Source: Rhodovibrionaceae bacterium
GTDB lineage: Bacteria; Pseudomonadota; Alphaproteobacteria; Kiloniellales; DSM-21159
Assembly (NCBI GenBank): GCA_028279885.1
Contig: JANQMX010000069.1
Span: forward strand, 1 to 64,000
DNA length: 64,000 nt
Direction of reading: 5' to 3'
The position numbers were made by a program, and so were the translations under genes. Positions within the stretch are counted from its first letter, which is position 1; the number at the start of each line of letters is the position of its first letter. Shown here piece after piece: positions 9,773-37,692 of the stretch. The notes beneath the pieces were generated by a model that was not told where the DNA came from, did no database searches, and saw only the letters and a list, made by a program, of their open reading frames with translations.

Positions 9773-10543
9773 CTAGCCGCCCTTTACGGATGTATGGAGG
9801 AGCTTCGTGCCTTTGCTCGAAGCCATGTGCTCTTCAGGCGGCGCTCGGTCCGTCACCAGAACATCGACCTCCTCGAAGTCGAGCACCCGGAAATCGCTGC
9901 GGGCGCGAAACTTGCTGTGGTCTGCCAGCACAGCAAGTCGTCCGGCGCGCCGTCTTAGGGTTCGGACCAGCCAGGCGTGCCACTCGGTTGGTTCCAGATA
10001 ACCGTCCTTCGAGTCGATGGCCGCAACGCCGATGCAGGCCAAGTCGAACACCCGGCGTTCGAGCATCTCGATGGCTTCGGGTCCGATCAGAGTCCTGGCC
10101 CGGCTGCGCAGGTTGCCGCCCAGCAGGTAGACGTCCTGCTGCGCCTGCCGCGCGATGATCTCGGCGATCTCGATCGAGTTGGTGGTGAAGCGCCCAAGCG
10201 GACCGAATGACAGCTGCTCGGCCAGAGCGTTGGTTGTCGAGCCGCCGCCGATGTAGACCGTCATGCCCGGTTCGATCAGGTCGGCCGCCAGTTCGGCGAT
10301 CTTCTGCTTCTCGGCCAGCTGGCGTGTGGCGCGGGCCTGCGTCGATTCGAGCGCCTGTGGCGCGGTCAGCACCGCGCCCCCGTGCACGCGCCGCAGCTTG
10401 CCTTGCTCTTCCAGCATCTGAAGGTCGCGGCGCACTGTCATCTCGGAGACCTGCAGCTGCTTGGCCAGCCGCGCGACACGCACGCTCGCGGTCTCGTCGA
10501 GGATTTCCAGGATCTTCTCGTGCCTCAGCATGTTCGGGCTCAC
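9773..10543 (-). CDS. DeoR/GlpR family transcriptional regulator
   Basis: N-terminal DeoR HTH (RHEKILEILDETASVRVARLAKQLQVSEMTVRRDLQMLEEQGKLRRVHGGAV) and sugar-phosphate-sensor-like C-terminal domain (VYIGGGSTTNALAEQL). Confidence 0.95.
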   Translation of the reverse strand: MSPNMLRHEKILEILDETASVRVARLAKQLQVSEMTVRRDLQMLEEQGKLRRVHGGAVLTAPQALESTQARATRQLAEKQKIAELAADLIEPGMTVYIGGGSTTNALAEQLSFGPLGRFTTNSIEIAEIIARQAQQDVYLLGGNLRSRARTLIGPEAIEMLERRVFDLACIGVAAIDSKDGYLEPTEWHAWLVRTLRRRAGRLAVLADHSKFRARSDFRVLDFEEVDVLVTDRAPPEEHMASSKGTKLLHTSVKGG

Positions 10544-10639
10544 CCCAGCCGTTCGAAGCGCGATCGTGCTGCCGGCCAGTGGCCGACCATCGCTTCGACA
10601 TCACGGGATAACCCAGGATGCAGTCCACGCCAAGATCAA

Positions 10640-10675
10640 ACATAAAAAACAAAACAAACAAAATCGCACATAAAA
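10640..10675. promoter_or_regulatory. Candidate operator/promoter region with direct ACATAAAA repeats
   Basis: ACATAAAA at 10640-10647 and 10668-10675 around an A-rich AAACAAAACAAACAAAAT tract between divergent deoR-like gene and transporter operon. Confidence 0.35.
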
Positions 10676-10761
10676 CTGTCACGTCTCGGTGCTACTCCCC
10701 GCGACGGGCGGAACGGGGCATCCCGCCTCCATTCAGCTCTGACGCAGACAAGGGGAAAATA

Positions 10762-12324
10762 ATGATCCGGACTAATGGCAAGGGCTTGCTCGGCGCCGGC
10801 CTCGCGGCCGTTGCGCTTTTGGCGACGAGCCCGCAGGACGCCGCGGCGGATGGACAGCGAGAGCTGACCGTCGCGGTCACCAATCTCTCGACCCATCTCG
10901 ACCCCATGGGGTTCAACGCCAACGTCAACATGCGGGTTTCGCAGAACGTGCTGGAAACCCTCATCCGCTACGACTTCAAGAAAGGCACCTTCGGCCCCGG
11001 CTTGGCGACTGCTTGGAAGATGACCAGCCCGACGGTGATGGAGCTGACCCTCCGCGAGGGTGTGAAGTGCCATAACGGCGAGGATTTCACGGCCGAGGAT
11101 GTGGCCGTGGCCTTCGGCCCCGAGCGCTTCCAGGGCGAGGGCGCGCCCGGCTATTCCGTCGCCAAGCAGTATCTCAGCATCATCAAGGACGTGCGCGCGG
11201 TGGGCACGCACAAGCTCGAGGTGGAGACGGCCGTTCCCGACCCGCTGCTCGAGACGCGCCTGGCCAACTGGATGAGCGAAGTGCCCTGCGCCGACGCCTA
11301 CCGCGCGGCGGACGGCTGGGAAGCCTGGGGCCAGGCCGTGGTCGGCACCGGTCCCTACCGGGTCGCCGAGGTGCGCCCGGGCGAGTTTCATCGCTTCGAG
11401 CGCTTCGCGGACTACTACGGCGAAGCGGCGCCGCTCGACGCCTTTACGCTGACGGTGGTGCCGGAGATCGGCGCCCGTATCGCCGGCCTTCTGACGGGCG
11501 AGTTCGATATCGTCACCGAGATCTCACCGGACCAGTTCGACGCCATTTCGAACAACCCGAACAGCGAGGTCGTCGGCGGCCCGATCCGCAACATTCGCGT
11601 CGTGCTCTTCGACACGCGCCATCCGGTGCTGTCGGACCCGCGGGTTCGGCAGGCAATGAAGTACGCGATCGACCGCGATCTGATCGTCGAATCGATCTTC
11701 GAAGGCCGGACCAAGGTGCCAAACGGTTTTCAGATGGCTGCCTTCGGCAAGATGTATGTCGAGGACTTCAAGGGTGTGTCGTTCGATCCGGACAAGGCAC
11801 GCCGTCTGCTCGCCGAAGCGGGCTACGACGGTGAGGAGATCTCCTACCGCTACTTGACCGACTACTACACCGGCGAGGTCACCACGGCGCAGATCCTGCA
11901 GCAGATGTGGCGCGACGTCGGTCTCAACGTGACCCTGGAGCTCAAGGAGAACTGGGACCAGATCACAAACGCGAAGACCGATGCTGGCCGCGCGGTCGCG
12001 AATGACTCCGCCAATGCCGTCTACCCGGACCCGATCAGCCAGCTCTACCGCATCTACGGCCCGAACGGCTACGTCCAGAAGCGCGGTTACTGGCAGAACG
12101 CGGCTTTCAACGAAGCCAGCGATATGCTCTACGCCAGCACCGAGCCGAAAGCGCGCCGCGCGGCCTTCGAGACCATGCTGGAACTCTACGAGGCTGACCC
12201 GCCGGGAACCTATCTCTACGTGCTGCCGATGTTCTACGGCAAGCGGACGGGCGTTGACTGGGCACCGACGGACACGCCGTTCATGGACTTCCGCGCCGGC
12301 AACGTAAGCCTGGCCACGAACTAG
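10762..12324 (+). CDS. ABC transporter substrate-binding protein, peptide/Opp (SBP_bac_5) family
   Basis: Signal peptide MIRTNGKGLLGAGLAAVALLATSPQDAAA; family motifs VMELTLREGVKCHNGEDFTAEDV, VRQAMKYAIDRDLIVESIFEGR. ORF-track start 10618 trimmed to ATG at 10762. Confidence 0.93.
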   Translation: MIRTNGKGLLGAGLAAVALLATSPQDAAADGQRELTVAVTNLSTHLDPMGFNANVNMRVSQNVLETLIRYDFKKGTFGPGLATAWKMTSPTVMELTLREGVKCHNGEDFTAEDVAVAFGPERFQGEGAPGYSVAKQYLSIIKDVRAVGTHKLEVETAVPDPLLETRLANWMSEVPCADAYRAADGWEAWGQAVVGTGPYRVAEVRPGEFHRFERFADYYGEAAPLDAFTLTVVPEIGARIAGLLTGEFDIVTEISPDQFDAISNNPNSEVVGGPIRNIRVVLFDTRHPVLSDPRVRQAMKYAIDRDLIVESIFEGRTKVPNGFQMAAFGKMYVEDFKGVSFDPDKARRLLAEAGYDGEEISYRYLTDYYTGEVTTAQILQQMWRDVGLNVTLELKENWDQITNAKTDAGRAVANDSANAVYPDPISQLYRIYGPNGYVQKRGYWQNAAFNEASDMLYASTEPKARRAAFETMLELYEADPPGTYLYVLPMFYGKRTGVDWAPTDTPFMDFRAGNVSLATN

Positions 12325-24210: not shown

Positions 24211-25623
24211 TTACGCCCCAGGCGCGTGCCTATCCGCAAGCGCTTTCCTGTGAGGGGCGGGCTTCGCTTTTCCAAGGATCGTATGCGGTCGCCACAGGGC
24301 GAAGGTCCATGCTGCGACAATGGCGAGCGTAAGGCCGATCCAGCCTATAATCACGGCTCTGACGCCGGGTGCCAGTGTTGGAAGGTGCCTCTCGCCGTCG
24401 ATGAGGGGGCCCATGAACTCGCGCGCACCATGCAGGCCGAAAGGCACGGACGCGGCGAGCACAGCTATCGATACGGTACAGGCAGCCATCGTGCCCGGCC
24501 ACCGCGTTCGTGAGCGCCCGCTCGCTTCGCGGGCCAAGCGATGCGCATGCAGCCAGGTACCGGTGAGAATGAGAGCGCTCAGGATTATGCCGAAAACGAA
24601 CCAGATGAGCTTGCTGGAAAGTCCGCCGAAATCGCCGAAATGCAACGGATCGGCCGTGTCCGACCAGCGCCAATAGAGCGGCAAGTCGGACGCTCGCTGA
24701 TCATAAAGCACCTCGCCGTTGCGCACATCCAGATGGAGCTGATTGGCGCGGTCCCGGACGAGCAGGTGGCCGGCCTGGCCGTCCAGGTAGAGGCTGTCTC
24801 CGCGCGGCCTGACAGTGCGGATTTCAAGGTCCGGCCGCGCGTCCTGCGCCTTGGCAATGAGGGTATCCAGCGGCATTGCAGGTAAGCCGGTATCCGAACG
24901 GGGCTGCGGAAGCGGGCGGACGGCGGCCTCTGTCGTACCGGCGAATGCGATGATTCCGTCGAAGTAATCGTAACGTATCCGTTCGATGCCGTACCAGATG
25001 CCCGTCACCACCATCACGACAACGAACCAGAGGCTCCAGAGCCCGGCGATTTTGTGGAGCTCGCTCCAGAACACCCGGCCGCTGCCCCACTTGAAGCGGA
25101 AGAAGCGCTGCCACCAGCGCCGATAGAACACCAGTGCCGCAATCATGGAGACGGCCATGGTCACCGCGAAGGCGGCCACGAGCAGCGTCCCCCAACTCGT
25201 CGGAAAGAACAGAGACCTGTGATAGTTGCGGAAGAACCGCGCAATGTTCAACTGGCTCCAGGCGCCCTGAACCTGGCCGCTGTAAGGGTCGACATAGACC
25301 CGAACGCCGCGTTGGTGAGGCAGGTTGACCAGAACCTCCGCCGACGAGCGCGTATACAAGGGAGCGCGCAGCGAAACGACTCTCGCATCGGGCAGGGCGG
25401 CCGTTACCGAAGCCAGTATCTCGCCCCAGCTCACCTGTTCGGCCGTCGGGGTGGAGCGCGCTTCCGGCGTGACCAGCCAGTCAAGCTCGTGGGAGAGGGT
25501 TGCGAAGGTGCCGCTCCAACAGACGACAAACAGCAGCAGGCCCGTGATTACGCCCGTGAAACTGTGGACACGAAACCACCTTCTGGTCGTCGTTGCCCCA
25601 CGGCTGCCTTTCGACGGTGCCAT
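24211..25623 (-). CDS. PepSY domain-containing membrane protein (iron-associated)
   Basis: 470 aa; RRWFRVHSFTGVITGLLLFVVCWSGTFATLSHELDWL, multiple TMs; downstream of TonB receptor on same strand. Confidence 0.92.
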   Translation of the reverse strand: MAPSKGSRGATTTRRWFRVHSFTGVITGLLLFVVCWSGTFATLSHELDWLVTPEARSTPTAEQVSWGEILASVTAALPDARVVSLRAPLYTRSSAEVLVNLPHQRGVRVYVDPYSGQVQGAWSQLNIARFFRNYHRSLFFPTSWGTLLVAAFAVTMAVSMIAALVFYRRWWQRFFRFKWGSGRVFWSELHKIAGLWSLWFVVVMVVTGIWYGIERIRYDYFDGIIAFAGTTEAAVRPLPQPRSDTGLPAMPLDTLIAKAQDARPDLEIRTVRPRGDSLYLDGQAGHLLVRDRANQLHLDVRNGEVLYDQRASDLPLYWRWSDTADPLHFGDFGGLSSKLIWFVFGIILSALILTGTWLHAHRLAREASGRSRTRWPGTMAACTVSIAVLAASVPFGLHGAREFMGPLIDGERHLPTLAPGVRAVIIGWIGLTLAIVAAWTFALWRPHTILGKAKPAPHRKALADRHAPGA

Positions 25624-25635
25624 CGAAACCGTGGC

Positions 25636-28110
25636 TTAAAACCTGAGGGACAGGGTTCCGAGGACCGTCAACGGCGCACCGGGGTAAATCTCGTTCCGGC
25701 TGCGCGAGGCCTCGATGTAGTCGACGTCGAAGAGGTTCTGAATATTGAGCGAGGCTTCGATATGCTCGTTGTAGCTGTAGAACACGGTGGCGTCCGTACG
25801 GACATAGCCGTCGACCTTGAAGGTGTTGGCCAGATCGCCATCGCGCTGGCCGACGGCGAAGAGGCCTGCACCGAAGCCAAGCCCCTTGAAATCACCCTGC
25901 TGGATTTCGAAGGTCGACCAGATACTGCCGCTGAAATCCGGAACGTCGTTGATCCGGTTGCCCGGCTCGAACCGGTTGTCCTCCGTGATCTCCGCGTCGA
26001 TGTAGGCGCCGGACGCAATCACCCGCCAGCCGGGCAGAATCTCGCCGGCGATATCGAGTTCGACACCGCGGCTGCGCTGCTCTCCGGTCTGTACCGAGAA
26101 ACCCGGGTTGTCCGGGTCGGCGGTCAACACGTCCTGGCGCGTCAGCTCGAAGGCGGCCAGCGTTGCCGAAAGCCGGTTGTCCATGAACTCGGCTTTGATG
26201 CCCGCTTCGATCTGTTTGCCGGTCTCGGGCTTGAAGGGGCTGCCGTCGAAGGTCGTGCCCACCACCGGTTCGAAGGACTCGCCATAGCCTGCGAAAAGCG
26301 AAACGCTTTGGATCGGCTTGTAGACGAGACCGACCCTCGGGGTGAAATCCTGCTCGGACGGATTGGTTTCCGAACCGCTGAGCTCGCTGCGAAAATCCGC
26401 ATAGTCGAAGCGCCCGCCAACCAGGAGCTGCCAGTGTTCGCCGATGGAGATTTGGTCCTGCACATAGAAACCGGCGACATGAATGCGATAGTCGTTGATG
26501 ATCGCCGGGCCTAGCGGGCCCGGTTGCGCGCCGTAGATCGGATCGAAAATGTCGATTGGCGCCAGGGGGCCCGTAGCGAACTTGACCCTGCGCTCGGCGC
26601 GGGTGGCCTCGGCGCCTATCAGCAGTTTATGATCCAAAAAGCCGGTTGCGAACTCGCCGATGACATCGTTTTGAAACCTGAAGTCGCGAAAATCGTCTCT
26701 CTGACGGAGCGCCCTGCGGTTCAGAGTTCTGTTGTCGGCCTGAACGCCGCGCGGGTCGGCGCTGAAACGAAGGGAGTCGCCGGCAACGAACCGGAAGGAG
26801 CTGCGCAGCTGCCAAGAGCTGTTGAAATCATGTTCGAGGAGGTAGCGCGCTCGCACCTGCTCCGCCTCGACTTGGGAGAAGCGCTCACCGAGATATCTGC
26901 TGTCGGGAATGTCCGCGACACCGTCACCGACGGCGACGAGCCCCCTGTCGAACTGGTTCTCCTGTTCCGCGTACTGCGCGTTCAGCGTCAGCCGCGTGTC
27001 CGGCGAGATGTCCCAGGCACCGACCGCCGCGGCGAATATACGCTCGGAGTCGATGAAGAAGTCACGGAAGCTGTCATTTCGCTGATAGGCGCCGTTGAAG
27101 CGGACTCGCAGCGATCTGTCCTCGTTGAGCGGCGTGGAGACGTCCACCGTCGGGCGCAGGAATTCGAAACTGCCGACCGTCATCTCGGCTGCATAGTACG
27201 GCTCGTCCAAGGGCTGCTTTGTCACGAGGTTCACGAGGCCTCCGACCTCGCTTGGTCCGAAGAGAACCGAGGCCGGTCCTTTCAGGACCTCCACGCGCTC
27301 CACGTTCGCAAGGTCGAGAAAGATCTGATCGCCGAAGAACGGGTTGGAGGGTATGCCGTCGGTGGCAAAGGCGGTCTGCTCGAAACCGCGGATTCTCAGA
27401 GCCTCCTGGCGGTTGCCGAAGGTGCCGCTCGACTGGACGTTGCTTATGTTCCGGGCGACGTCGGACAGGCTGTTCGCCTTCTGGTCCTCGATGACCTCGC
27501 GCGGCACCACTTGGATCGACTGAGGGATATCGAGGATCAGCGTGTCCGTCTTCGTTGCGGTGGCAGAGCGTGACGCCTTGTAACCGTCGACCGGCCCGTA
27601 GGCGGACTCCGCGGCGCCTTCGACGGTGATCGGCCCAAGTCGCAGTGCCGCATCGTCGTCCTGCTCTGCCAACGCCCGTATGACGATCGTTGCGTCCCCT
27701 GCGCGGCTATAGGTCAGCCCCGTTCCGGCCAGGAGGCGCTGCAGCGCTTGATCCGCCGTCATCCTGCCGCGTACGCCCGCGGTCGACAGGGTCCTGACGA
27801 GCGCGCCGTCGACGCTCACCTGGAGCCCTGATTGCCGTCCGAACAGCGTGAGAGCGCTGGTCAGCGGCTGTGCCGGAATGTCGAATTCCGATTGAGGCAT
27901 CGACGTCTGAGCAAGCCGAGAGGCTCCCGCATCCGGGCCGGACCGGTCGAGCGCGGCGTCATGTTCAGGTTGCCGCAACGGCTCCCGCCAATCCTGCGCG
28001 CCGGCCTGGCCTCCGAACCCCAATGCCGCCAGCACTGTTACGCCCAAGGCAACGATGAGAGTCGCCCGTTCTCCACCGGCGGATACTTCCGCCTTCGCCC
28101 ACGTCTTCAC
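25636..28110 (-). CDS. TonB-dependent siderophore receptor with N-terminal STN (signalling) domain
   Basis: FDIPAQPLTSALTLFGRQSGLQVSVDGALV...(STN), plug TDTLILDIPQSIQVVPREVIEDQ, C-terminal LSLRF. Confidence 0.96.
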   Translation of the reverse strand: MKTWAKAEVSAGGERATLIVALGVTVLAALGFGGQAGAQDWREPLRQPEHDAALDRSGPDAGASRLAQTSMPQSEFDIPAQPLTSALTLFGRQSGLQVSVDGALVRTLSTAGVRGRMTADQALQRLLAGTGLTYSRAGDATIVIRALAEQDDDAALRLGPITVEGAAESAYGPVDGYKASRSATATKTDTLILDIPQSIQVVPREVIEDQKANSLSDVARNISNVQSSGTFGNRQEALRIRGFEQTAFATDGIPSNPFFGDQIFLDLANVERVEVLKGPASVLFGPSEVGGLVNLVTKQPLDEPYYAAEMTVGSFEFLRPTVDVSTPLNEDRSLRVRFNGAYQRNDSFRDFFIDSERIFAAAVGAWDISPDTRLTLNAQYAEQENQFDRGLVAVGDGVADIPDSRYLGERFSQVEAEQVRARYLLEHDFNSSWQLRSSFRFVAGDSLRFSADPRGVQADNRTLNRRALRQRDDFRDFRFQNDVIGEFATGFLDHKLLIGAEATRAERRVKFATGPLAPIDIFDPIYGAQPGPLGPAIINDYRIHVAGFYVQDQISIGEHWQLLVGGRFDYADFRSELSGSETNPSEQDFTPRVGLVYKPIQSVSLFAGYGESFEPVVGTTFDGSPFKPETGKQIEAGIKAEFMDNRLSATLAAFELTRQDVLTADPDNPGFSVQTGEQRSRGVELDIAGEILPGWRVIASGAYIDAEITEDNRFEPGNRINDVPDFSGSIWSTFEIQQGDFKGLGFGAGLFAVGQRDGDLANTFKVDGYVRTDATVFYSYNEHIEASLNIQNLFDVDYIEASRSRNEIYPGAPLTVLGTLSLRF

Positions 28111-28178
28111 CGTTCAGCCTCCATCCGTCTGCTGCCAACCCGAGCGACGATCAAGAGGCGGTGCATCGCGGCCAGGGC

Positions 28179-28197
28179 GCGAATGCGTCGCATTATC
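28179..28197 (-). promoter_or_regulatory. Candidate Fur box upstream of TonB receptor
   Basis: Minus-strand GATAATGCGACGCATTCGC matches 13/19 of GATAATGATAATCATTATC by hand count; core AATGCG-N-CGCATT palindrome. Confidence 0.45.
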
Positions 28198-28288
28198 GTT
28201 GCTTTACTACGGCGACGACGAAGGCCCTGGTTTTTCTAAGGAAAAATCGATGAAAGCACTTAAGGCATTGTTATTGAAAGAAGAATTT

Positions 28289-29407
28289 TTACTTGTCGGA
28301 AACGATCAGAATCCATGGGGTGATCTGCCGGACGCTCGCACCGTGCGCCTGCGCGATGGCGTTCAGCGCGCTGACCGGATCGGCCAGATTGTAGATGCCG
28401 GTCACCCGCCGCTTGGCCAGGACATCGTCCGGCAGGATGATCGTTCCGCCGTAATAGCGGCGGAGCTGGTCCACCACCGTTTCCATTGCCTGATCGTGAG
28501 CGATGAGCTGGCCCCTGCGCCAAGCCGCAATCTGGCTCGCTTGTCTGTTACCGCGGAGAGTGCGGCCGGTCCAGCTGACCGTCATGAGTTGTCCGGCTTC
28601 AAGCACTTCCGACAGGGATGGAAACGCGGCCTCGTAATCGACCCGAACCGTCCCGTGTTCGACCGCGACCGTCACGCCGCCTTCTTCTCGGACAACGTTG
28701 AATGCCGTGCCAAGAACGGCCGTATGGACATCCTGCGTCGCAACCTCGAAGGGCCGCCCGGGGTTCGGCGCCACCTCGAAAAAGGCTTCACCGGCAAGCA
28801 GCCTTATCCGGCGCTTGGAGGCGTCGTAAGCGACCGAGACGGCACTTTCGGGCGCCAAGGTCACCAGGCTGCCGTCCTCGAGGCGCAGCGTGCTGACCTC
28901 CGCTGTCCCGGTCCTGTGGTCGGCGCGTAGCTGCAACAGCACGTCCGGGGCGGTCACAAAAGCAAGACAGGCCATGGCGGCAAGGGCCGCGAATTTAAGG
29001 CCGCGCCGTCTCGTGCGTGCCGCCGCATTCGCGCACCCCGCCGCAGCCGTCCGACGCCGGGGCGCGGAGATCGGTTGCAGGCCTTCGTCCTCCTTTCGCG
29101 CGACATATGGCCCCCACTGCTCGCCATAAGCCGCCGCCGTGGCCCCTATGGCGTCGGCTGTGCGCTGCGTTGCCGCCCAAGCTGCCTCGTGGACGGGACT
29201 TTCCTTCAACCATTCTTCGAAGCGCCGCCGCAGGGTCGGATCGTTCGGCTCCTCCTGCAACAGGAGCAGCCAATCCGTCGCCTCTCTGGAAGCCTTTTCC
29301 TGCGTCGACTCGGGATTGTCAGCCATGCCGTCCCAGATTTCCGTGCCGGAGGCCGGGACCGGATGCCCGCCCGTTTTGGTGTTGCCGAAAGGAGGTCCTG
29401 CACTCAT
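28289..29407 (-). CDS. FecR family anti-sigma/sigma regulator
   Basis: DUF4880-like N-terminus (EATDWLLLLQEEPNDPTLRRRFEEWLKESPVHEAAW), FecR core (LEDGSLVTLAPESAVSVAYDASKRRIRLLAGEAFFEVAPNPGRPFEV). Confidence 0.95.
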   Translation of the reverse strand: MSAGPPFGNTKTGGHPVPASGTEIWDGMADNPESTQEKASREATDWLLLLQEEPNDPTLRRRFEEWLKESPVHEAAWAATQRTADAIGATAAAYGEQWGPYVARKEDEGLQPISAPRRRTAAAGCANAAARTRRRGLKFAALAAMACLAFVTAPDVLLQLRADHRTGTAEVSTLRLEDGSLVTLAPESAVSVAYDASKRRIRLLAGEAFFEVAPNPGRPFEVATQDVHTAVLGTAFNVVREEGGVTVAVEHGTVRVDYEAAFPSLSEVLEAGQLMTVSWTGRTLRGNRQASQIAAWRRGQLIAHDQAMETVVDQLRRYYGGTIILPDDVLAKRRVTGIYNLADPVSALNAIAQAHGASVRQITPWILIVSDK

Positions 29408-29459
29408 GAAACGAACGCGCCGGCATCTTTTTCAAAAACGCCACGCGCGCGATTGAGGA

Positions 29460-29972
29460 CTACAACCGACCTAGACGGCGCTTGCAATGCTGCACCCCCT
29501 CCGACACCAGGAGGTGGGCGAGAGGCACAGAGATATCCAGGAATGCCGCGATCTCTCTGAGCTTGCAGCCGCCTATCCGATGCATTTCAAGCGCAATGCG
29601 GGTGCGCTCCGGCAGTTCCGCGATTGCCTCCATGACCAACTCGAGATCGTCTTTATGGAGCGCAACCGTCTCCGGGCTCGGCGCCTCGTCAGCTGCGGAG
29701 GCGACGGCGACATCGCGACAGCCGCCGATCATGATGCGGCCCTCGCGTGCCATCCGCCGGCGGCCGTCCAGCGCGAGGTTGCGCACGATGCGATAGAGAT
29801 AGCCGAGAGGCTGTTCGAGCTGGCGATGGCGCGCCGCTTCGTCGAAGCGCAGCCAAGCCTCTTGGACGAGATCTTCCGCAAGCACACGGCTGCCGACGAT
29901 GCCGGCTGCATAGGCAATAAGGGCGCCTCTATGCGCCATGAAAATGCTAAGTGACGTCGTACCCTCGGGCAC
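29460..29972 (-). CDS. ECF RNA polymerase sigma factor, FecI-like
   Basis: 170 aa; AEDLVQEAWLRFDEA, YLYRIVRNLALDGRRR, ELPERTRIALEMHRIGGCKLREIAAFLDISVPLAHLLVSEGVQHCKRRL. Confidence 0.95.
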   Translation of the reverse strand: MPEGTTSLSIFMAHRGALIAYAAGIVGSRVLAEDLVQEAWLRFDEAARHRQLEQPLGYLYRIVRNLALDGRRRMAREGRIMIGGCRDVAVASAADEAPSPETVALHKDDLELVMEAIAELPERTRIALEMHRIGGCKLREIAAFLDISVPLAHLLVSEGVQHCKRRLGRL

Positions 29973-30324: not shown

Positions 30325-31557
30325 TTAGGCAGCCCACTTGATCTGGAACTCGACTTCCTGCTTGGTCTTGCCACGCTCGTGCTCGATGTTGAACACGGCA
30401 CCGGCCGGAACCGAAACGCGCTCGCCGGCGATCTGGATCTTGAAGCTCTGACCCTTCTCGACTGCTTGCGCGAAGCGGCGAAGCTTGGCGGCGAAATCCT
30501 TGGCCGAATAGGCCTTCTCGAGATCGCGCTGCAGCTTGCGGGCCGGCGACATGGGACGACGCGCCAGCGGCTTCTTGGCGCCGATGCGGCGCTTGGCCAG
30601 CGTCTTGTTGACGGTCTTCCGGGCGACCGCCTTCTTGGCGACAGTCTTCCGGGCAACCGCCTTCTTAGCGACCGGCTTCCGAGCGGTGGTCTTCCGGGCA
30701 ACCGCCTTTTTGGCGACGGCCTTGCGGGCGACCGGCTTCTTGACCGCGGTCTTGCGGACCGTGGTCTTCCGAGCGACCGGCTTCCGGGCCGTGGTCTTCC
30801 GAGCGGTGGTGGTCTTCTTGGCGACGGCCTTGCGGGCGACCGGCTTCTTAGCCGCGACCTTACGAACCGGCTTCTTGGCCGCGGTCTTGCGGACCGTGGT
30901 CTTCCGAGCGACCGGCTTCCGGGCCGTGGTCTTCCGGGCGGTGGTGGTCTTCTTGGCAACGGCCTTGCGGGCGACCGGCTTCTTGGCCGCGACCTTACGA
31001 ACCGGCTTCTTAGCCGTGGTCTTGCGGACCGTGGTCTTCCGAGCGGTGGTCTTGCGGGCCGTCGTGGTCTTCTTGGCGACCGGCTTCCGGGCCGTGGTCT
31101 TCCGAGCAGTGGTGGTCTTCTTCGCAGCCGGCTTCCGCGCGGTGGTCTTCTTGGCAACAGCCTTGCGGGCGACCGGCTTCTTGGCTGCGACCTTGCGAAC
31201 CGGCTTCTTCGCCGTGGTGGTCTTCCGAGCCGTGGTCTTCTTGGCGGTGGTGGTCTTCTTCGCCGCCGTCTTCTTGGCAACCGGCTTCTTGGCAACCGGC
31301 TTCTTGGCAACCGGCTTCTTGGCAACCGACTTCTTGGCCGCGGTCGAACGGGTGGTGCTCGTCCGCTTGGTCGCCGGGCGCTTCACAGCCGCGCGCTTCG
31401 TCGCCGGGCGCTTGGCGGCCGTGCGCTTCACGGTGCCGGTCTTGGATTTCGTGGTGGTACGCGACTTGCTGGCCGTGCCGGCCTTGCGAGTCGAGGTCTT
31501 CTTGGCAGTCCCAGCCACGGCGGCAGGGGTCGCCTTCTTTGCGGTCGCTTTCGCCAT
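30325..31557 (-). CDS. Histone H1-like Lys/Ala/Thr-rich repeat protein with C-terminal amphi-Trp-like domain
   Basis: 410 aa; ~300 aa of KKTTARKPVARK-type repeats followed by AAKLRRFAQAVEKGQSFKIQIAGERVSVPAGAVFNIEHERGKTKQEVEFQIKWAA. Confidence 0.88.
   Translation of the reverse strand: MAKATAKKATPAAVAGTAKKTSTRKAGTASKSRTTTKSKTGTVKRTAAKRPATKRAAVKRPATKRTSTTRSTAAKKSVAKKPVAKKPVAKKPVAKKTAAKKTTTAKKTTARKTTTAKKPVRKVAAKKPVARKAVAKKTTARKPAAKKTTTARKTTARKPVAKKTTTARKTTARKTTVRKTTAKKPVRKVAAKKPVARKAVAKKTTTARKTTARKPVARKTTVRKTAAKKPVRKVAAKKPVARKAVAKKTTTARKTTARKPVARKTTVRKTAVKKPVARKAVAKKAVARKTTARKPVAKKAVARKTVAKKAVARKTVNKTLAKRRIGAKKPLARRPMSPARKLQRDLEKAYSAKDFAAKLRRFAQAVEKGQSFKIQIAGERVSVPAGAVFNIEHERGKTKQEVEFQIKWAA
30751..31155. 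repeat. ~135-bp tandem coding repeats within the H1-like gene (about three units)
   Basis: CTTGCGGACCGTGGTCTTCCGAGCG recurs at 30751, 30886 and 31021 (spacing 135 bp), corresponding to a 45-aa unit; outer boundaries approximate. Confidence 0.75.
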
Positions 31558-31787: not shown

Positions 31788-32519
31788 ATGGACCACGCGC
31801 ACTATGAGCGCAGACTGTCGGCACTTCAGCGCGAGCTGTCTTTACTGCAGACCTCTTACGTCAAACGCGGCTACCGTGGCGTTGTCGTGCTCGAAGGCTG
31901 GGACGCGGCCGGTAAGGGCGGCCTGGTTCGCCGTATGGGCTGGTGCGTCGACCCGCGTTACTTCCGGGTCTGGTCGATCGGCGCGCCCAAGGACCATGAA
32001 CGCCGCGAGCATTGGATCAAACGCTTCTGGGACAAGATCCCGGAGGATGGGAACATCGCCGTCTTCGACCGCTCCTGGTACGGGCGCGTCCTGGTGGAGC
32101 GCATCGAGGGTTATGCCGAGGAGAACGACTGGCGCCGCGCCTACGCCGAGATCGCGGCCTTCGAGCAGACGCTGACCGACGAAGGCTACCGGCTGGTCAA
32201 GCTCTTCCTGGATATCTCGCCGGAAACCCAGCTCAGACGCTTCCAGGAGCGCTTCTCCAACCCGGAGAAGCGCTGGAAGATCACCGAGGAAGACCTGCGC
32301 AACCGCGCGCGCTGGCATCTCTATCAAGAGGCCTATGCGGAGATGCTGGAGAAGACCTCCGGCGCGAGCGCGCCCTGGCTGAGGCTCGACGGCAACCACA
32401 AACGGAAGCTGCGCCTGCAGGCCTTCCAGGCCATTATCGAGGGCCTCGGAAACGGCGTGGAGGTGCACGAGCCGCAGGTCTCGCCGCTCTTGCAAGCCTT
32501 CTTCCACGAACCGCGCTGA
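31788..32519 (+). CDS. Polyphosphate kinase 2 family protein
   Basis: 243 aa; VVVLEGWDAAGKGGLVRRM, PKDHERREHWIKRFWDKIPEDGNIAVFDRSWYGRVLVERIEG. Confidence 0.95.
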   Translation: MDHAHYERRLSALQRELSLLQTSYVKRGYRGVVVLEGWDAAGKGGLVRRMGWCVDPRYFRVWSIGAPKDHERREHWIKRFWDKIPEDGNIAVFDRSWYGRVLVERIEGYAEENDWRRAYAEIAAFEQTLTDEGYRLVKLFLDISPETQLRRFQERFSNPEKRWKITEEDLRNRARWHLYQEAYAEMLEKTSGASAPWLRLDGNHKRKLRLQAFQAIIEGLGNGVEVHEPQVSPLLQAFFHEPR

Positions 32520-32609
32520 GGGAGACGGCGCCTCGGACCGCTAGAAGCGGTCGATCACCGTGATGCCCGAACCCGCATAGCCGTCCATGGCGGCAAGGGC
32601 AGCGCCGGC
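32478..32609. repeat. Left flanking direct repeat of the helicase cassette (native ppk2 3' end + adh 3'-end relic)
   Basis: 132 bp, 126/132 identical to 37561-37692 by hand alignment, no indels. Confidence 0.92.
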
Positions 32610-32713
32610 CAAGAGACGGTATCCGAACACGGGGTTCTACTCTACTTTAGCTACCCGTAGCGATAGACTAATAACTCATTCAGCTAGAAATGCCCTTTTG
32701 CGAAGGCCGTAGA

Positions 32714-33889
32714 ATGTCGAGTTTTCGTGATTTGTATGAGAAATGTGAGAAGCTGGATTTGGGAGGTGTTGGACCCAAAACGCTGATCGAGCTGTTAGCA
32801 CAACGCCGCTCTTGGCGTGAGGACAAGCTTGAAGCTGCCTATTACAAAGCCACTAGTCCGACCTTTAGGACGGGCCATTCGAATTTCAGAACGTTGATCG
32901 TTCAGTTCTTGGAGCACGGTCTAATCCGCGAAAGGGAAGCAGAAACAGGATATCGCTTTGCCTTGAATAGCAATGTCTGGGAGCAAGACGTTAAGCTATT
33001 CGAAGCCCTGAACGTGCTGGTGTACTTCTTCCACTCTAACTCCGAGCACCGCTTACGGGTGGACTGCAATCTCAACACATTTCTCCGTCGTGTTGTCGGC
33101 AAGTTGGAGAATACTCCCTTTGCCAATCTGCACTACTCGGTCACTTATCCAATTGCGGGCACAATCGTCTCTCGATTGCGAGACTTCAGCGGCGACGAGA
33201 GCATCCAACGATTCCGATTCGCAACGCGGACAGCAGATCAAATTAAGGCTGGGCGTAGGCCTTCATCGCAGCCAACTCTGTTTCAACCGCAGGGGCAACG
33301 TGCGCAGCCGCGAGACAGACACCCGGCAATTCGTGCTCAGTCCGCGACGCCTGACAAACCGACGTCGCCTATCAGTCCGCCCCCTTCTGATCAATCAGCC
33401 GTTCGCGGACCAGAGCCAGAGACAGGCCCATCGAACGATCCGCCGCCCGGATTGCCCTATGGTTGTGTCAAGGTGCTAGAGCCAACCACGGTATGGCAGC
33501 CAGTCATCGATAAGCTGAACCGCGAAATGCTGAGAGCCAGTCCTTTCGCGGACAGAAATGCACTGATCATGGAGATGCACGTTACATCCACTCGGCGCCA
33601 ACGTGTGATGATCGCCGTGATGAAGCGTCGAGCGCGCTGTCACTTGCTTGTGTTCAGCCTATGCGGAGTAGTTGGCGAGGAGGTCGATTTGGTCGGTCTT
33701 CTGGCCGCCGTCGATATTGATCCGAGCGGAGCCCACCCCGCACTTCTGCGAATTGATGGAGAGCGTGTTATTGGCGTTGTCCTGACCATGCCGTTCTCAC
33801 CCGAACAAGATTTCTTTGGTCCTATCAGCACCGTTGGCAAATTGGCAGACCATCTGGAAGCATCCTTTTGGGGCGTGGACGAGTACTGA
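32714..33889 (+). CDS. Hypothetical protein, cassette gene 1 (possible YbjN/chaperone-like C-terminus)
   Basis: ORF 32690-33889; likely start MSSFRDLYEKCEKL at 32714. Two conserved-looking ends joined by a Pro/Ser/Gln-rich linker; stop overlaps start of the next gene (TGATG). Confidence 0.8.
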   Translation: MSSFRDLYEKCEKLDLGGVGPKTLIELLAQRRSWREDKLEAAYYKATSPTFRTGHSNFRTLIVQFLEHGLIREREAETGYRFALNSNVWEQDVKLFEALNVLVYFFHSNSEHRLRVDCNLNTFLRRVVGKLENTPFANLHYSVTYPIAGTIVSRLRDFSGDESIQRFRFATRTADQIKAGRRPSSQPTLFQPQGQRAQPRDRHPAIRAQSATPDKPTSPISPPPSDQSAVRGPEPETGPSNDPPPGLPYGCVKVLEPTTVWQPVIDKLNREMLRASPFADRNALIMEMHVTSTRRQRVMIAVMKRRARCHLLVFSLCGVVGEEVDLVGLLAAVDIDPSGAHPALLRIDGERVIGVVLTMPFSPEQDFFGPISTVGKLADHLEASFWGVDEY

Positions 33890-36800
33890 TGGCTGATAAA
33901 ACCACTCAAGAGGAGAACGCGTTAGAAGCCGATCCAATTCAGCCTTTCGCGCCTCAGCGAGAAGAGGCGTTCCGTAGGGAGAGCTACTCCGGCGGTTCCC
34001 CGCTTGAACAAATGATACTAGCGCTGAGCGACGAGATCGATTTCGCCCAGCACAATGCCCGTAAGCAAACGCTAAAAAATGGCGAGCGAATAGGCGAGTT
34101 GGGAGGACTCCATCTATACTCGTTTCCTTTAGATCGCGCTTTCGATTTTGAGGCAGATGAAGACGTGGCCGTCGCCATCGGGGGACGCGATTACCGAGGA
34201 CGTATAGTCAGAATCGAGTTAGCGTCTGTGGTGATTGGTATCGACGAGCATCGCGGTGAAGCTCTAGCCCGCGTCGATATCACCAGAGCCGAAGACATCA
34301 TCGAGAAGCTTCTTCGCAAACAACTGGCGGCCGTATTTGAAGGGAAGCTGCCAGGATTCAATAAGAGCCAAGCCGACTATGTGATCGGGCAAGGCGAGCC
34401 GGAATCAAACACGACATCCATACCTGAGTTGGTAGACATATTCCTTTCTGTAAAAAGTTTTGCGCTTAACCCCGAGCAGCAAACCTTCATCAGTAAGGCG
34501 CTTGCATCCGAGCTAACGCTTCTCTGGGGACCACCGGGATGCGGGAAAACTCTGTGCATCGGACTGTTGGCCGCTTGTCTGCTGGCTCAGAACAAGCGGG
34601 TGCTGCTCGCTTCCAACACCAACAAAGCCGTAGACGGTGCATTGCACCAAGTGTTGCAAACGCAGCAAGACATCAATGAAGAGACCGACGATGGAACAAT
34701 CATCCGTTTCAGCGGTGCCGGTATCACGGATGAGTTCAAGAGAGATTGGCCAAGCTACCTGCTGGATGAAATTCAGCGAAAGCGTGGTGAGGACCTAGAG
34801 GCTGAAAAGTCCAAGCTCCAAGCTGAACAATCCGCTAGAGCAGCGGACTTGGCTAAATGTGAACAGGGTTTGGAAATCCACGAAGGTTATCGTCAACTCC
34901 AGCAGCGACGCTCCAGCGCTCCTCGGGAGATAAAAGATTGTCAGGCCGCCCTCGAAGGGCTTCGCCGACAAATGAGCGAACTCGAGGAAGTGCGGAGAAA
35001 TCTGGAGGCAGAATGGGCCGACGCGCCTGAAACGCCTACGCTCGTGAGCCGCCTAACTAGGAAGCGGCCACGAGGGGAAATCGAGGCACAACGTCTTCAA
35101 TGCCAAGACCAAATAAAGCGCACCCAGGTCAGGTTAGAAGAGCGAACACAACGTTTGGCAGCCCTGAAACATGAACGGACGCAGCTTGAGAAACTTACTG
35201 TCGAGCTGACTGAACGGCTCAAGAGAATACGACCTGAGAGCGATCTGAAGTCTGAACAGCAAACGCTCCGATCTCGCCTTTCCGAACTCGACACGCGCCT
35301 ACAGGAAATTGATCAAGCACTTGGTGACTTACGCAGGAGTATTCTGAGCGAAGCTCGTCTGATTGGCACGACAGTTCACAAGACTTTCCTAGACCCACTG
35401 CTTTCAAGCCTCGAATTCGATGCCGTGATCGTAGACGAGGCCAGCATGGTTGTGCTCCCGATGATCTACTGGGCAGCGGGCCGCGCTAAGGCTCAAGTGA
35501 TCGTCGTCGGTGACTTTCAACAACTGCCTGCAATCATCAAAAACACCGATAGTGAACTAGTTGGCGAGTGGTTGGCATGTTCTCCATTCGATAAATGGCA
35601 TGTCCCCGACGCCGTCCAGAAGGGAAGCACGAAGGACCTCCCTTTTCTGGTCGCGCTTCAAGAGCAGAACCGAATGCACCCAGAAATCGGGCGCCTGGTC
35701 TCAGACCTGTTCTATTCCGACATTCACACGCCCAAAGGAAATGGGCTCCTGCCGGGCCCCCGTGCAAAGAGCCAAGTGTCGAGCTCCCAGCGGCTGCCCC
35801 AACAAAAGACTGACAAGCGCATCACCACCATTGACACAAGAGACCTCGGAGGCTGGTCCAGCCAGCCTTACGAAGGATCAGGCCGATTCAACCCAACGCA
35901 TGTTGCGCTAGGGTTGGCCTTGATAGACCGCTTTGCGCTGGCCGGTGTGTTGGAGGCAGGGGAAAACAGTCAAGTCGGCTTTGTCACGCCTTACGCTGGC
36001 CAGGCCAGGCTATTCACAAAGGCAGCAGAACAGCGTCACCACGACTTAATCGATCAAACCAGTATCGGCACTGCCCACCGGTTTCAGGGCGGTGAGCGCG
36101 ATATCATTATCTTCGACTATGTTCTTTCGGAGAACCGGCGCTACCCGTCTCGCTTTATCGATTCGAAAGACGGACGTGACCAACCGGCCAATTTGCTCAA
36201 CGTGGCCCTTAGTCGGGCGAAGAAGCACCTAATAGTGATTTACAACTCCGACGATTTCGGTGAGCGAGGCACCCATCCATGGATGCGCAATTTCTTTCAG
36301 ACCTTGGTAGAGCGTTCAGAGGCTCTTGATGCCAAGCAACTTCTGCAAGAATCTGACGTTCTTGGGCAAGTGCGTGAATTGGCGAGTGGCCGTGCATTCA
36401 CGGTCGAGGAAGGCAACACACTTCACGACGAAACCAGCTTTTACGCGGCCGTTCGCAAGGATCTCGTTTCGGCACGACAGGCTGTCTTAATCTTTAGCGC
36501 ATTTGCCACTCCTGAGAATGTCGCTCGTTGGGCCGATTTGTTTCAGTCCATGCTTGAGCGAGGCGTGAGAATCAGGGTTGTCACCAAACCCGCACGAAGT
36601 CAGCCAAATGCACAGCGAAACAGCCAGCAGCTGATGGCCATGTTCGACACGTTGCGACGCGCGGGCATCGTTATCGACACTCGATCGGCAACCCACGAGA
36701 AAGCTGTCGTGATCGACAGCAAAATCGTCTGGCATGGGTCGCTCAACATGCTTTCGCAGAATGTTGCGCGCACGACAGAGCTAATGACCCGCACTGTCTC

Positions 36801-37524
36801 GTCGGAGTATGCCAATGAACTACTCCGCATGCTGGCCCGCCATGATCTGAAGCAACAGGATCTAACCTTACAGCAGTTACCGGTCTGTCCGACCTGTAGC
36901 GGTCCGACGACTCTAGGCGCGAATTGGAAAGGACAGCGGTTTCTCTTCTGCGAACAGGATTGTGGATTCATCGCCGCAGCCTGGGACTTTCACAAGCTTG
37001 CTCACGGACTGCCCATAGGGAAGCACTTGCATCGCTGCCCGGCTTGTCGAAGCGGTAGCGTGGTGGTTGCTCAGACAAAGCGAGGGCGCACCTATGGTCG
37101 CTGTAATAGCAGTGGTCGTAGCGGCGGCCCGAAGTGCAAGCACCAAGAAGAGCTTCGGCTAACCGATCTACCGGCCTATGAACCCTACCCCGAGCCCAAG
37201 GCACCAGAACCTTCCATTTTGGCTGAACTAACAATCGAAGCTGCTGACACGTTCGCGTCACCACCGTCTGCTAGGTCAACAGTAGGCGAGGTGGCCGTGC
37301 CTTCGAAGAAGAAGATGAAGAAGCAAGACGCCACGTCGTCGGGAAGGCGACCGACATCGCATTCCTCTGAAGGGCCAAGTCAATCTCCTGCAAACAAGAC
37401 TAGCTACAAGACCAAACCATCGCCTTCGATCTCACGGTCTCAGCAGGACGAGGCGAAGAAGGGTCGTCGTAGGCGCCCCAAAGATGCTGCCGAACTGGAC
37501 GCCTATCTCTCATCGCTAAGCTGA
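33889..37524 (+). CDS. SF1 (Upf1/COG1112-like) helicase with central coiled coil, PLD-like nuclease domain and Cys-rich C-terminal modules; Mokosh-type helicase-PLD candidate
   Basis: Walker A LLWGPPGCGKTLC; motif II AVIVDEASM; GDFQQLPAI; TAHRFQGGERDIIIFD; LNVALSRAKKHLIVI; PLD half-motif THEKAVVIDSKIVWHGSLNML (HxKxxxxD); CPTC...CEQDC and CPACRSG...C clusters. Start trimmed from 33868 to ATG 33889. Confidence 0.93.
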   Translation: MADKTTQEENALEADPIQPFAPQREEAFRRESYSGGSPLEQMILALSDEIDFAQHNARKQTLKNGERIGELGGLHLYSFPLDRAFDFEADEDVAVAIGGRDYRGRIVRIELASVVIGIDEHRGEALARVDITRAEDIIEKLLRKQLAAVFEGKLPGFNKSQADYVIGQGEPESNTTSIPELVDIFLSVKSFALNPEQQTFISKALASELTLLWGPPGCGKTLCIGLLAACLLAQNKRVLLASNTNKAVDGALHQVLQTQQDINEETDDGTIIRFSGAGITDEFKRDWPSYLLDEIQRKRGEDLEAEKSKLQAEQSARAADLAKCEQGLEIHEGYRQLQQRRSSAPREIKDCQAALEGLRRQMSELEEVRRNLEAEWADAPETPTLVSRLTRKRPRGEIEAQRLQCQDQIKRTQVRLEERTQRLAALKHERTQLEKLTVELTERLKRIRPESDLKSEQQTLRSRLSELDTRLQEIDQALGDLRRSILSEARLIGTTVHKTFLDPLLSSLEFDAVIVDEASMVVLPMIYWAAGRAKAQVIVVGDFQQLPAIIKNTDSELVGEWLACSPFDKWHVPDAVQKGSTKDLPFLVALQEQNRMHPEIGRLVSDLFYSDIHTPKGNGLLPGPRAKSQVSSSQRLPQQKTDKRITTIDTRDLGGWSSQPYEGSGRFNPTHVALGLALIDRFALAGVLEAGENSQVGFVTPYAGQARLFTKAAEQRHHDLIDQTSIGTAHRFQGGERDIIIFDYVLSENRRYPSRFIDSKDGRDQPANLLNVALSRAKKHLIVIYNSDDFGERGTHPWMRNFFQTLVERSEALDAKQLLQESDVLGQVRELASGRAFTVEEGNTLHDETSFYAAVRKDLVSARQAVLIFSAFATPENVARWADLFQSMLERGVRIRVVTKPARSQPNAQRNSQQLMAMFDTLRRAGIVIDTRSATHEKAVVIDSKIVWHGSLNMLSQNVARTTELMTRTVSSEYANELLRMLARHDLKQQDLTLQQLPVCPTCSGPTTLGANWKGQRFLFCEQDCGFIAAAWDFHKLAHGLPIGKHLHRCPACRSGSVVVAQTKRGRTYGRCNSSGRSGGPKCKHQEELRLTDLPAYEPYPEPKAPEPSILAELTIEAADTFASPPSARSTVGEVAVPSKKKMKKQDATSSGRRPTSHSSEGPSQSPANKTSYKTKPSPSISRSQQDEAKKGRRRRPKDAAELDAYLSSLS

Positions 37525-37560
37525 TGCTGGCGGCTCGTCTCAACTACCTGTGCGTTTGAA

Positions 37561-37692
37561 GTCTCGCCGCTCTTGCAAGCCTTCTTCCACGAACCGCGCT
37601 GAGGGAGGCGGTGTCTCGGACCGCTAGAAGCGGTCGATCACCGTGATGCCGGAACCCGTGTAGCCGTCCATGGCGGCAAGGGCAGCGCCGGC
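37561..37692. repeat. Right flanking direct repeat of the helicase cassette (ppk2 3'-end relic + native adh 3' end)
   Basis: 132 bp; begins with GTCTCGCCGCTCTTGCAAGCCTTCTTCCACGAACCGCGCTGA, identical to the ppk2 3' end (VSPLLQAFFHEPR*). Confidence 0.92.

Follow-up and report, generated by a model that had tools for sequence, protein, structure and literature searches.

A two-gene insert in a Rhodovibrionaceae bacterium encodes a UPF1-like helicase-PLD protein with probable zinc ribbons, a candidate defence nuclease distinct from MkoC

In the window, that is, the whole 64,000-nucleotide stretch of Rhodovibrionaceae DNA analysed here, two overlapping genes, A and B, are best read (at a probability of about 0.6) as a defence cassette, gained by horizontal transfer and encoding a helicase-nuclease, that would act in a manner similar to type II Mokosh but does not encode MkoC. 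Gene B (33889..37524, + strand) is an intact open reading frame for a 1211-aa protein that combines a UPF1-like SF1 helicase with a PLD domain and two Cys clusters that align with zinc ribbons. We have high confidence in this architecture and in the assignment of gene B to an apparently unnamed SF1-PLD-zinc-ribbon family. Confidence in a role of gene B in defence, presumably an antiviral one, is moderate, and confidence in any particular role of gene A is low.

Domain organization of gene B

The Pfam domains of the gene B protein follow one another in the order AAA_11 (113.8 bits), AAA_12 (83.3 bits) and PLDc_2. The N-terminal part (33994..34458; residues 36-190; this and all other features of gene B are on the + strand) consists of a helix and a beta-barrel that, according to AlphaFold and Foldseek, are equivalent to the stalk and 1B domain of UPF1. 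In the helicase proper, the Walker A motif WGPPGCGKT (34525..34551; residues 213-221) is conserved in the SF1-PLD-zinc-ribbon family and motif II, DEASM (35434..35448; residues 516-520), is invariant there. The two motifs are separated by 301 residues, as opposed to 155-172 in plain relatives. Between motif Ia and motif II lies a coiled-coil insertion (34789..35352; residues about 301-488), which AlphaFold models as long helices and across which SMC-like coiled-coil matches were obtained. The PLD domain (36460..36834; residues 858-982) is recognised by PLDc_2 above the cut-off (E 1.7e-12) and carries one HKD motif, HEKAVVID (residues 936-943, with H936, K938 and D943), followed by W948 and GSLN (950-953); the pattern from HEK to GSLN has a single match in the window and none in 100 shuffles.

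Further downstream, two Cys clusters (36886..37233; residues about 1000-1115) align with the topoisomerase-type zinc ribbons of the relatives, detected as PF01396 in 14 of the 21 aligned rows, several of which are incomplete. On the gene B protein itself no zinc ribbon was scored by Pfam, although its Cys pairs align with those ribbons. The protein ends in a basic Ser/Pro-rich tail (37234..37521; residues 1116-1211) that has no counterpart in the relatives and is probably disordered and not conserved. An earlier note on this DNA had described a 1211-aa SF1 helicase with its motifs, a coiled-coil region between them, the HEKAVVID motif, two Cys clusters, a basic tail and a companion gene, and all of these features were recovered in our analysis.

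Predicted fold

AlphaFold was given residues 30-1115 of gene B together with 20 relatives. The resulting model (pLDDT 79, pTM 0.67) comprises an N-terminal barrel with strands at fragment residues 30-104, two RecA domains, and a long arm of helices (fragment residues 272-349, 366-416 and 421-459) that separates Walker A from motif II. The PLD region was modelled as an alpha/beta structure (pLDDT mostly 72-92), and the Cys clusters coincide with two small beta elements. The top folds retrieved by Foldseek were SETX, IGHMBP2, DNA2 and UPF1, which places gene B among the UPF1-like SF1 helicases. It shares the helicase-core fold with these four proteins, but they serve in cellular RNA or DNA roles and have no PLD domain, coiled-coil arm or topoisomerase-type ribbons.

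The Foldseek alignments with UPF1 and IGHMBP2 span about 800 columns, mainly in the helicase part. The PLD domain is therefore assigned from Pfam, from conservation of the motif, and from a search with the isolated domain, in which mitochondrial cardiolipin hydrolase was a distant match by sequence (E 4.7e-5). Two hits of the isolated domain that scored higher are designed PPR repeat proteins aligned over about 47 residues and were set aside as uninformative. In the structure prediction, which the earlier note had named as a check on the PLD domain, an alpha/beta region was modelled, and Foldseek gave no match of its own that would confirm the PLD fold. Judged from its sequence match, the domain resembles the single-HKD MitoPLD/Zucchini type. 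PLD enzymes of the cardiolipin-hydrolase class possess one HKD motif per chain and are active as dimers, and for this reason dimerisation is proposed below for gene B.

Comparison with Mokosh

Type II Mokosh is encoded by one gene, in whose product a COG1112-type helicase forms the N-terminal part and a PLD domain the C-terminal part (PMC11672841). The earlier note had named a fusion of this kind, and the domain order of gene B fits it. The type I layout, with the helicase (often carrying a kinase domain) and the PLD domain encoded separately as MkoA and MkoB, does not apply, as the PLD domain is fused within gene B, and gene A has no PLD or kinase match in Pfam or PADLOC. Judged by its sequence, however, gene B is not MkoC, a conclusion in which we have high confidence. 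MkoC is the second-best PADLOC family for gene B (E 1.3e-48), with 163.9 bits in three pieces on the protein and 139 bits in the genome-wide search, and it is outscored by the MkoA profile (195 bits, helicase portion only). In comparison, a genuine MkoC encoded on an Agrobacterium plasmid matches the profile from end to end at 1243.7 bits, and one from Acinetobacter reaches 331.4 bits. A search of 386 genomes of the class with the MkoC profile yielded two long matches, of 1229 and 322 bits, and a broken gene at 250 bits; below these came other SF1 helicases scoring 115-204 bits, a range that includes gene B at 139. The search with MkoC profiles that the earlier note had suggested as a check went against it, with 139-164 bits inside the background as opposed to 322-1244 bits, spread over most of the profile, for true MkoC.

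In a maximum-likelihood tree of the helicase core, MkoC, represented by only two rows on long branches, was split from the 33 other rows with support of 100/99; the tree gives no firm position for gene B among the non-MkoC rows. The spacing between Walker A and motif II is 404-429 aa in MkoC but 301 in gene B, and the family relatives match MkoC (P0004) with only 38-88 bits over partial length. An identification of gene B as MkoC was rejected on the score background, the tree split and the insertion length. Gene B and type II Mokosh both join, in one polypeptide, a UPF1-like/COG1112 SF1 helicase to a PLD domain that lies C-terminally and has a single HKD motif; MkoC belongs to another sequence clade with a longer insertion, whereas the probable zinc ribbons, the beta-barrel N-terminus and the partner gene A are features of gene B or its locus. 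The resemblance to single-gene Mokosh claimed in the earlier note accordingly holds for domain order but fails for profile score, tree and insertion spacing. Its view that the Cys-rich ends and the companion gene make this a Mokosh variant is better replaced by that of a separate helicase-PLD-zinc-ribbon family with a locus-specific companion. Among UPF1-like helicases, fusions with a PLD domain appear to be spread over two distinct clades or more.

The SF1-PLD-zinc-ribbon family

Relatives of gene B are sparse. At 1e-20, no match besides that in its own genome was obtained in about 785 genomes (386 of the class and 399 of the phylum), and single-protein scans of viral and genome collections detected no close relatives. 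Of two alignment-based searches, one (A2) yielded no relatives and the other (A3) one locus only, retrieved via a generic helicase motif. The pattern VDEASM-x3-P-x16-GDFxQL retrieved 63 loci from 85,462 species genomes; at 20 of these loci the pattern is followed downstream by the motif H.K(x4)D...GS.N. The best relatives align with gene B over its residues 39-1093, at up to 401 bits and about 30% identity, and identity to gene B within the family is 24-32%. Family members are found in more than 10 phyla, including Planctomycetota, Chloroflexota, Nitrospirota, Thermodesulfobacteriota, Acidobacteriota, Cyanobacteriota, Bacillota, Pseudomonadota, Omnitrophota, Peregrinibacteriota, Saccharibacteria and Bathyarchaeota, as read from record titles, many of which belong to metagenome bins, so that individual phylum labels may be mistaken. 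L080, the archaeal representative, retains the HKD motif but differs at its C-terminus.

PLDc_2 was recognised in all 21 aligned rows. Retention of the HKD motif in 20 relatives from very divergent phyla is what would be expected of a nuclease under selection. The spacing from Walker A to motif II, about 298 aa in the family, varies only from 292 to 308 aa (301 in gene B), indicating that the coiled-coil insertion is a family trait and not a peculiarity of gene B. Several members (L039, L062, L069, L072, L077, L079 and others) display the same full architecture as gene B, with DEASM, HKD and spacing alike, but lack gene A; the long basic tail and the divergent, probable zinc ribbons are features of gene B. 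Five members (L107, L108, L109, L111 and L112) appear, by eye, to share an extra N-terminal helical segment that ends in a motif like L.FR.T..M.AL and is absent from gene B.

No specific name for the family was found in PADLOC 2.0, NCBIfam 20 or the open-access papers searched. The NCBIfam entry 'PLuB helicase' was considered and dismissed, as it matched weakly (93 bits, the cut-off being 999) and the open-access literature yielded no paper on it. Proteins with a degenerate PLD domain from Aulosira (P0002) and Cytobacillus (P0008) share with gene B the N-terminal barrel region, the SF1 core and a PLD-like C-terminus, and that of Aulosira also the Cys clusters, but they have lost the HKD motif, and their insertion is short (spacing of 167-172 aa). 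At L011:5965-8595 and L036:7992-10217, the UPF1-like helicases encoded end in a PLD-like region from which the HKD motif has been lost. In such proteins the PLD domain persists without catalytic residues, perhaps for binding or dimerisation.

Genomic neighbourhoods of the relatives

Seventeen loci of relatives were opened and selected neighbours scanned by PADLOC; with no matched control set beside them, defence-type genes were recognised at 6 of the 17, and several of the relatives look solitary. At L107, a type IIG enzyme (958 bits) and a DruE-like helicase (339 bits) are co-directional with the helicase-PLD gene. The region L107:2630-17791 as a whole contains the type IIG enzyme, a 219-aa orphan, the helicase-PLD gene and the 2101-aa DruE-like helicase, all in one direction, and looks like one composite defence operon. 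At L103, a UvrD gene overlaps upstream and a type III methylase (415 bits) follows 20 bp downstream. GajA (727 bits) and GajB (753 bits) are encoded about 1 kb away at L113, CARF and CARF-HEPN genes are located beside the helicase-PLD gene at L114, a DrmMI/IIG-like methylase is a neighbour at L104, and an OLD/AriAB-like ATPase directly adjoins at L117. Some of these matches, such as the methylases and UvrD, are generic, and the neighbourhoods are suggestive only in pointing to defence.

The insert and its direct repeats

Genes A and B occupy a 4951-bp insert (32610..37560) that lies exactly between two copies of a 132-bp direct repeat. The left copy (32478..32609) consists of the 3' end of PPK2 and a duplicated 3' end of ADH, and the right copy (37561..37692) of a duplicated PPK2 3' end and the native ADH 3' end. 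The copies are identical at 126 of 132 positions, with the six differences in two clusters, and are the only two in the genome. A GACCGCT/AGCGGTC inverted repeat spans the ADH stop codon within the 132-bp repeat. The GC content of the insert is about 54%, compared with 62-71% in the flanking genes, and GC3 is 0.57 for genes A and B against 0.75-0.88 for the neighbours. In a genome of a sister species of the same genus (G001), PPK2 and ADH are convergent neighbours separated by some 400 bp, and neither A nor B is present, which marks these two genes as accessory, although the site in that genome is not perfectly empty. The gap between PPK2 and ADH there (L031, G001:C499, about 10516-10922) holds a short RidA-like gene, recognised by eye. 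The PPK2-ADH gap may be a variable spot.

The insert was most likely acquired horizontally, and recently. It contains only A and B, and no integrase, transposase, relaxase or replication gene was recognised in it; a direct-repeat trace of this kind would be expected if a circular molecule had integrated by homologous recombination. In the window, no recognised defence gene is found next to the insert, and no Rfam RNA or tRNA was detected. PPK2 is adjoined by a gene (30325-31557, - strand) for a 410-aa Lys/Ala-rich repeat protein of histone-H1-like composition with KKPVARK-type repeats. Farther away (24211-29972, - strand), genes for a TonB-dependent receptor, a FecR-like anti-sigma factor, an ECF sigma factor and a PepSY-type membrane protein were seen by eye and look like an ordinary iron-uptake set.

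Gene A

Gene A (32690..33889, + strand) encodes a 399-aa orphan protein, and its stop codon overlaps the start codon of gene B by one base (TGATG). Searches of plasmids, viral contigs, PDB, PHROGs, PADLOC, NCBIfam and 299 genomes, and of the neighbours of the family relatives, found no relatives apart from two weak genome matches (E 2.6e-4 and 6.0e-4). Both overlap the low-complexity linker, and one runs in a frame interrupted by three stops. Given the lack of a detectable relative, the case for a partnership of A with B rests on the overlap and the shared insert, and gene A belongs to this particular locus rather than to the family as a whole. The best family match in Pfam is WHD_ORC2, below the cut-off (E 0.025), and the single-sequence AlphaFold model (pLDDT 41) is informative for secondary structure only. 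The predictions suggest a helical N-terminal half, a Pro-rich disordered linker (about 190-250) and an alpha/beta C-terminal domain; from the WHD_ORC2 match and that model, the N-terminal half is possibly a winged helix.

Alternative interpretations

Another reading of gene B is that of a stress or RNA-quality-control helicase-nuclease, akin to UPF1 and SETX in housekeeping, that has spread horizontally and does not act against phages. The best folds are those of RNA/ssDNA surveillance helicases and many relatives are solitary in ordinary neighbourhoods, but the very sparse distribution among class and phylum genomes, the foreign composition, the insertion and the defence genes that adjoin several relatives make this reading unlikely. 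That gene B is a true divergent MkoC, with gene A an unrelated passenger, is a poorer prospect still: helicase and PLD occur in the same order in one gene, MkoC ranks second in PADLOC and both proteins have a single-HKD PLD domain, but against the MkoC profile gene B scores no higher than other SF1 helicases of the class do, and lower than against MkoA, and the tree split, the different insertion length and the low scores of the relatives against MkoC all weigh against it.

Slightly less probability still is left to A and B as DNA-processing genes of the mobile insert itself, acting in its mobilisation or stability and not in host defence. Long direct repeats bound the cassette and helicase-nucleases can process the DNA of elements, but the insert holds A and B alone, with no recognised mobility or replication gene, the relatives occupy unrelated contexts, and no further copy of the repeat is present in the genome. 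Lastly, gene B could be the CnuH helicase and gene A a wHTH partner of the CnuE type, the pair being derived from CoCoNuT. In CoCoNuT defence systems, a UPF1-like helicase whose Walker A motif is followed by a coiled-coil insertion is paired with nuclease effectors, some of them directly fused, PLD being among the effectors of its subtypes, and the wHTH partner CnuE has been modelled on the coiled-coil arm of CnuH (PMC11090510). The weak winged-helix hit in gene A agrees with such a derivation, and types II and III, with CnuH/CnuE, share with our locus the UPF1-like helicase, the insertion, a coupled nuclease effector and, possibly, a wHTH partner. McrB/McrC-type genes (CnuB/CnuC), however, are absent from the insert and its immediate flanks (PPK2 and ADH), gene A is located upstream rather than downstream and has no nuclease match, and the nuclease of gene B is a fused single-HKD PLD domain with probable zinc ribbons; with CnuH compared by description only, we hold this derivation to be very improbable.

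Proposed mechanism and implications

The interpretation of A and B as a defence cassette draws on the intact motifs of gene B, the HKD motif kept in 20 relatives, the defence genes near some of them, the low-GC insert and the parallel with CoCoNuT. Gene B would be the effector of the two-gene cassette, with a UPF1-like motor, its own single-HKD PLD domain and two probable zinc ribbons that would bind nucleic acid. Through the 1B barrel, the motor and the ribbons, it would load on single-stranded nucleic acid produced by phage (or plasmid) replication or transcription, and ATP-driven translocation would strip proteins or structure off that nucleic acid. Dimerisation, perhaps via the coiled-coil arm, would then unite two PLD domains in a single active site that cuts the strand. 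Gene A probably serves in recognition or control, as a subunit whose possible winged-helix half would dock on gene B or on the substrate; docking on gene B may take place by analogy with CnuE on the CnuH arm. More tentatively, A and B might represent a distinct, undescribed two-component immune system, a two-gene version of the widespread SF1-PLD-zinc-ribbon family that has spread on a cassette with long direct repeats, in which the winged-helix-like A licenses or targets the fused nuclease.

Annotation from domain lists would mislabel the SF1-PLD-zinc-ribbon family as Mokosh. The family extends to candidate-phylum bacteria and an archaeal relative, with some members near defence genes, and so constitutes a defined, testable candidate. 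It also frames the question of whether a UPF1-like motor joined to a PLD nuclease is a general antiviral design.
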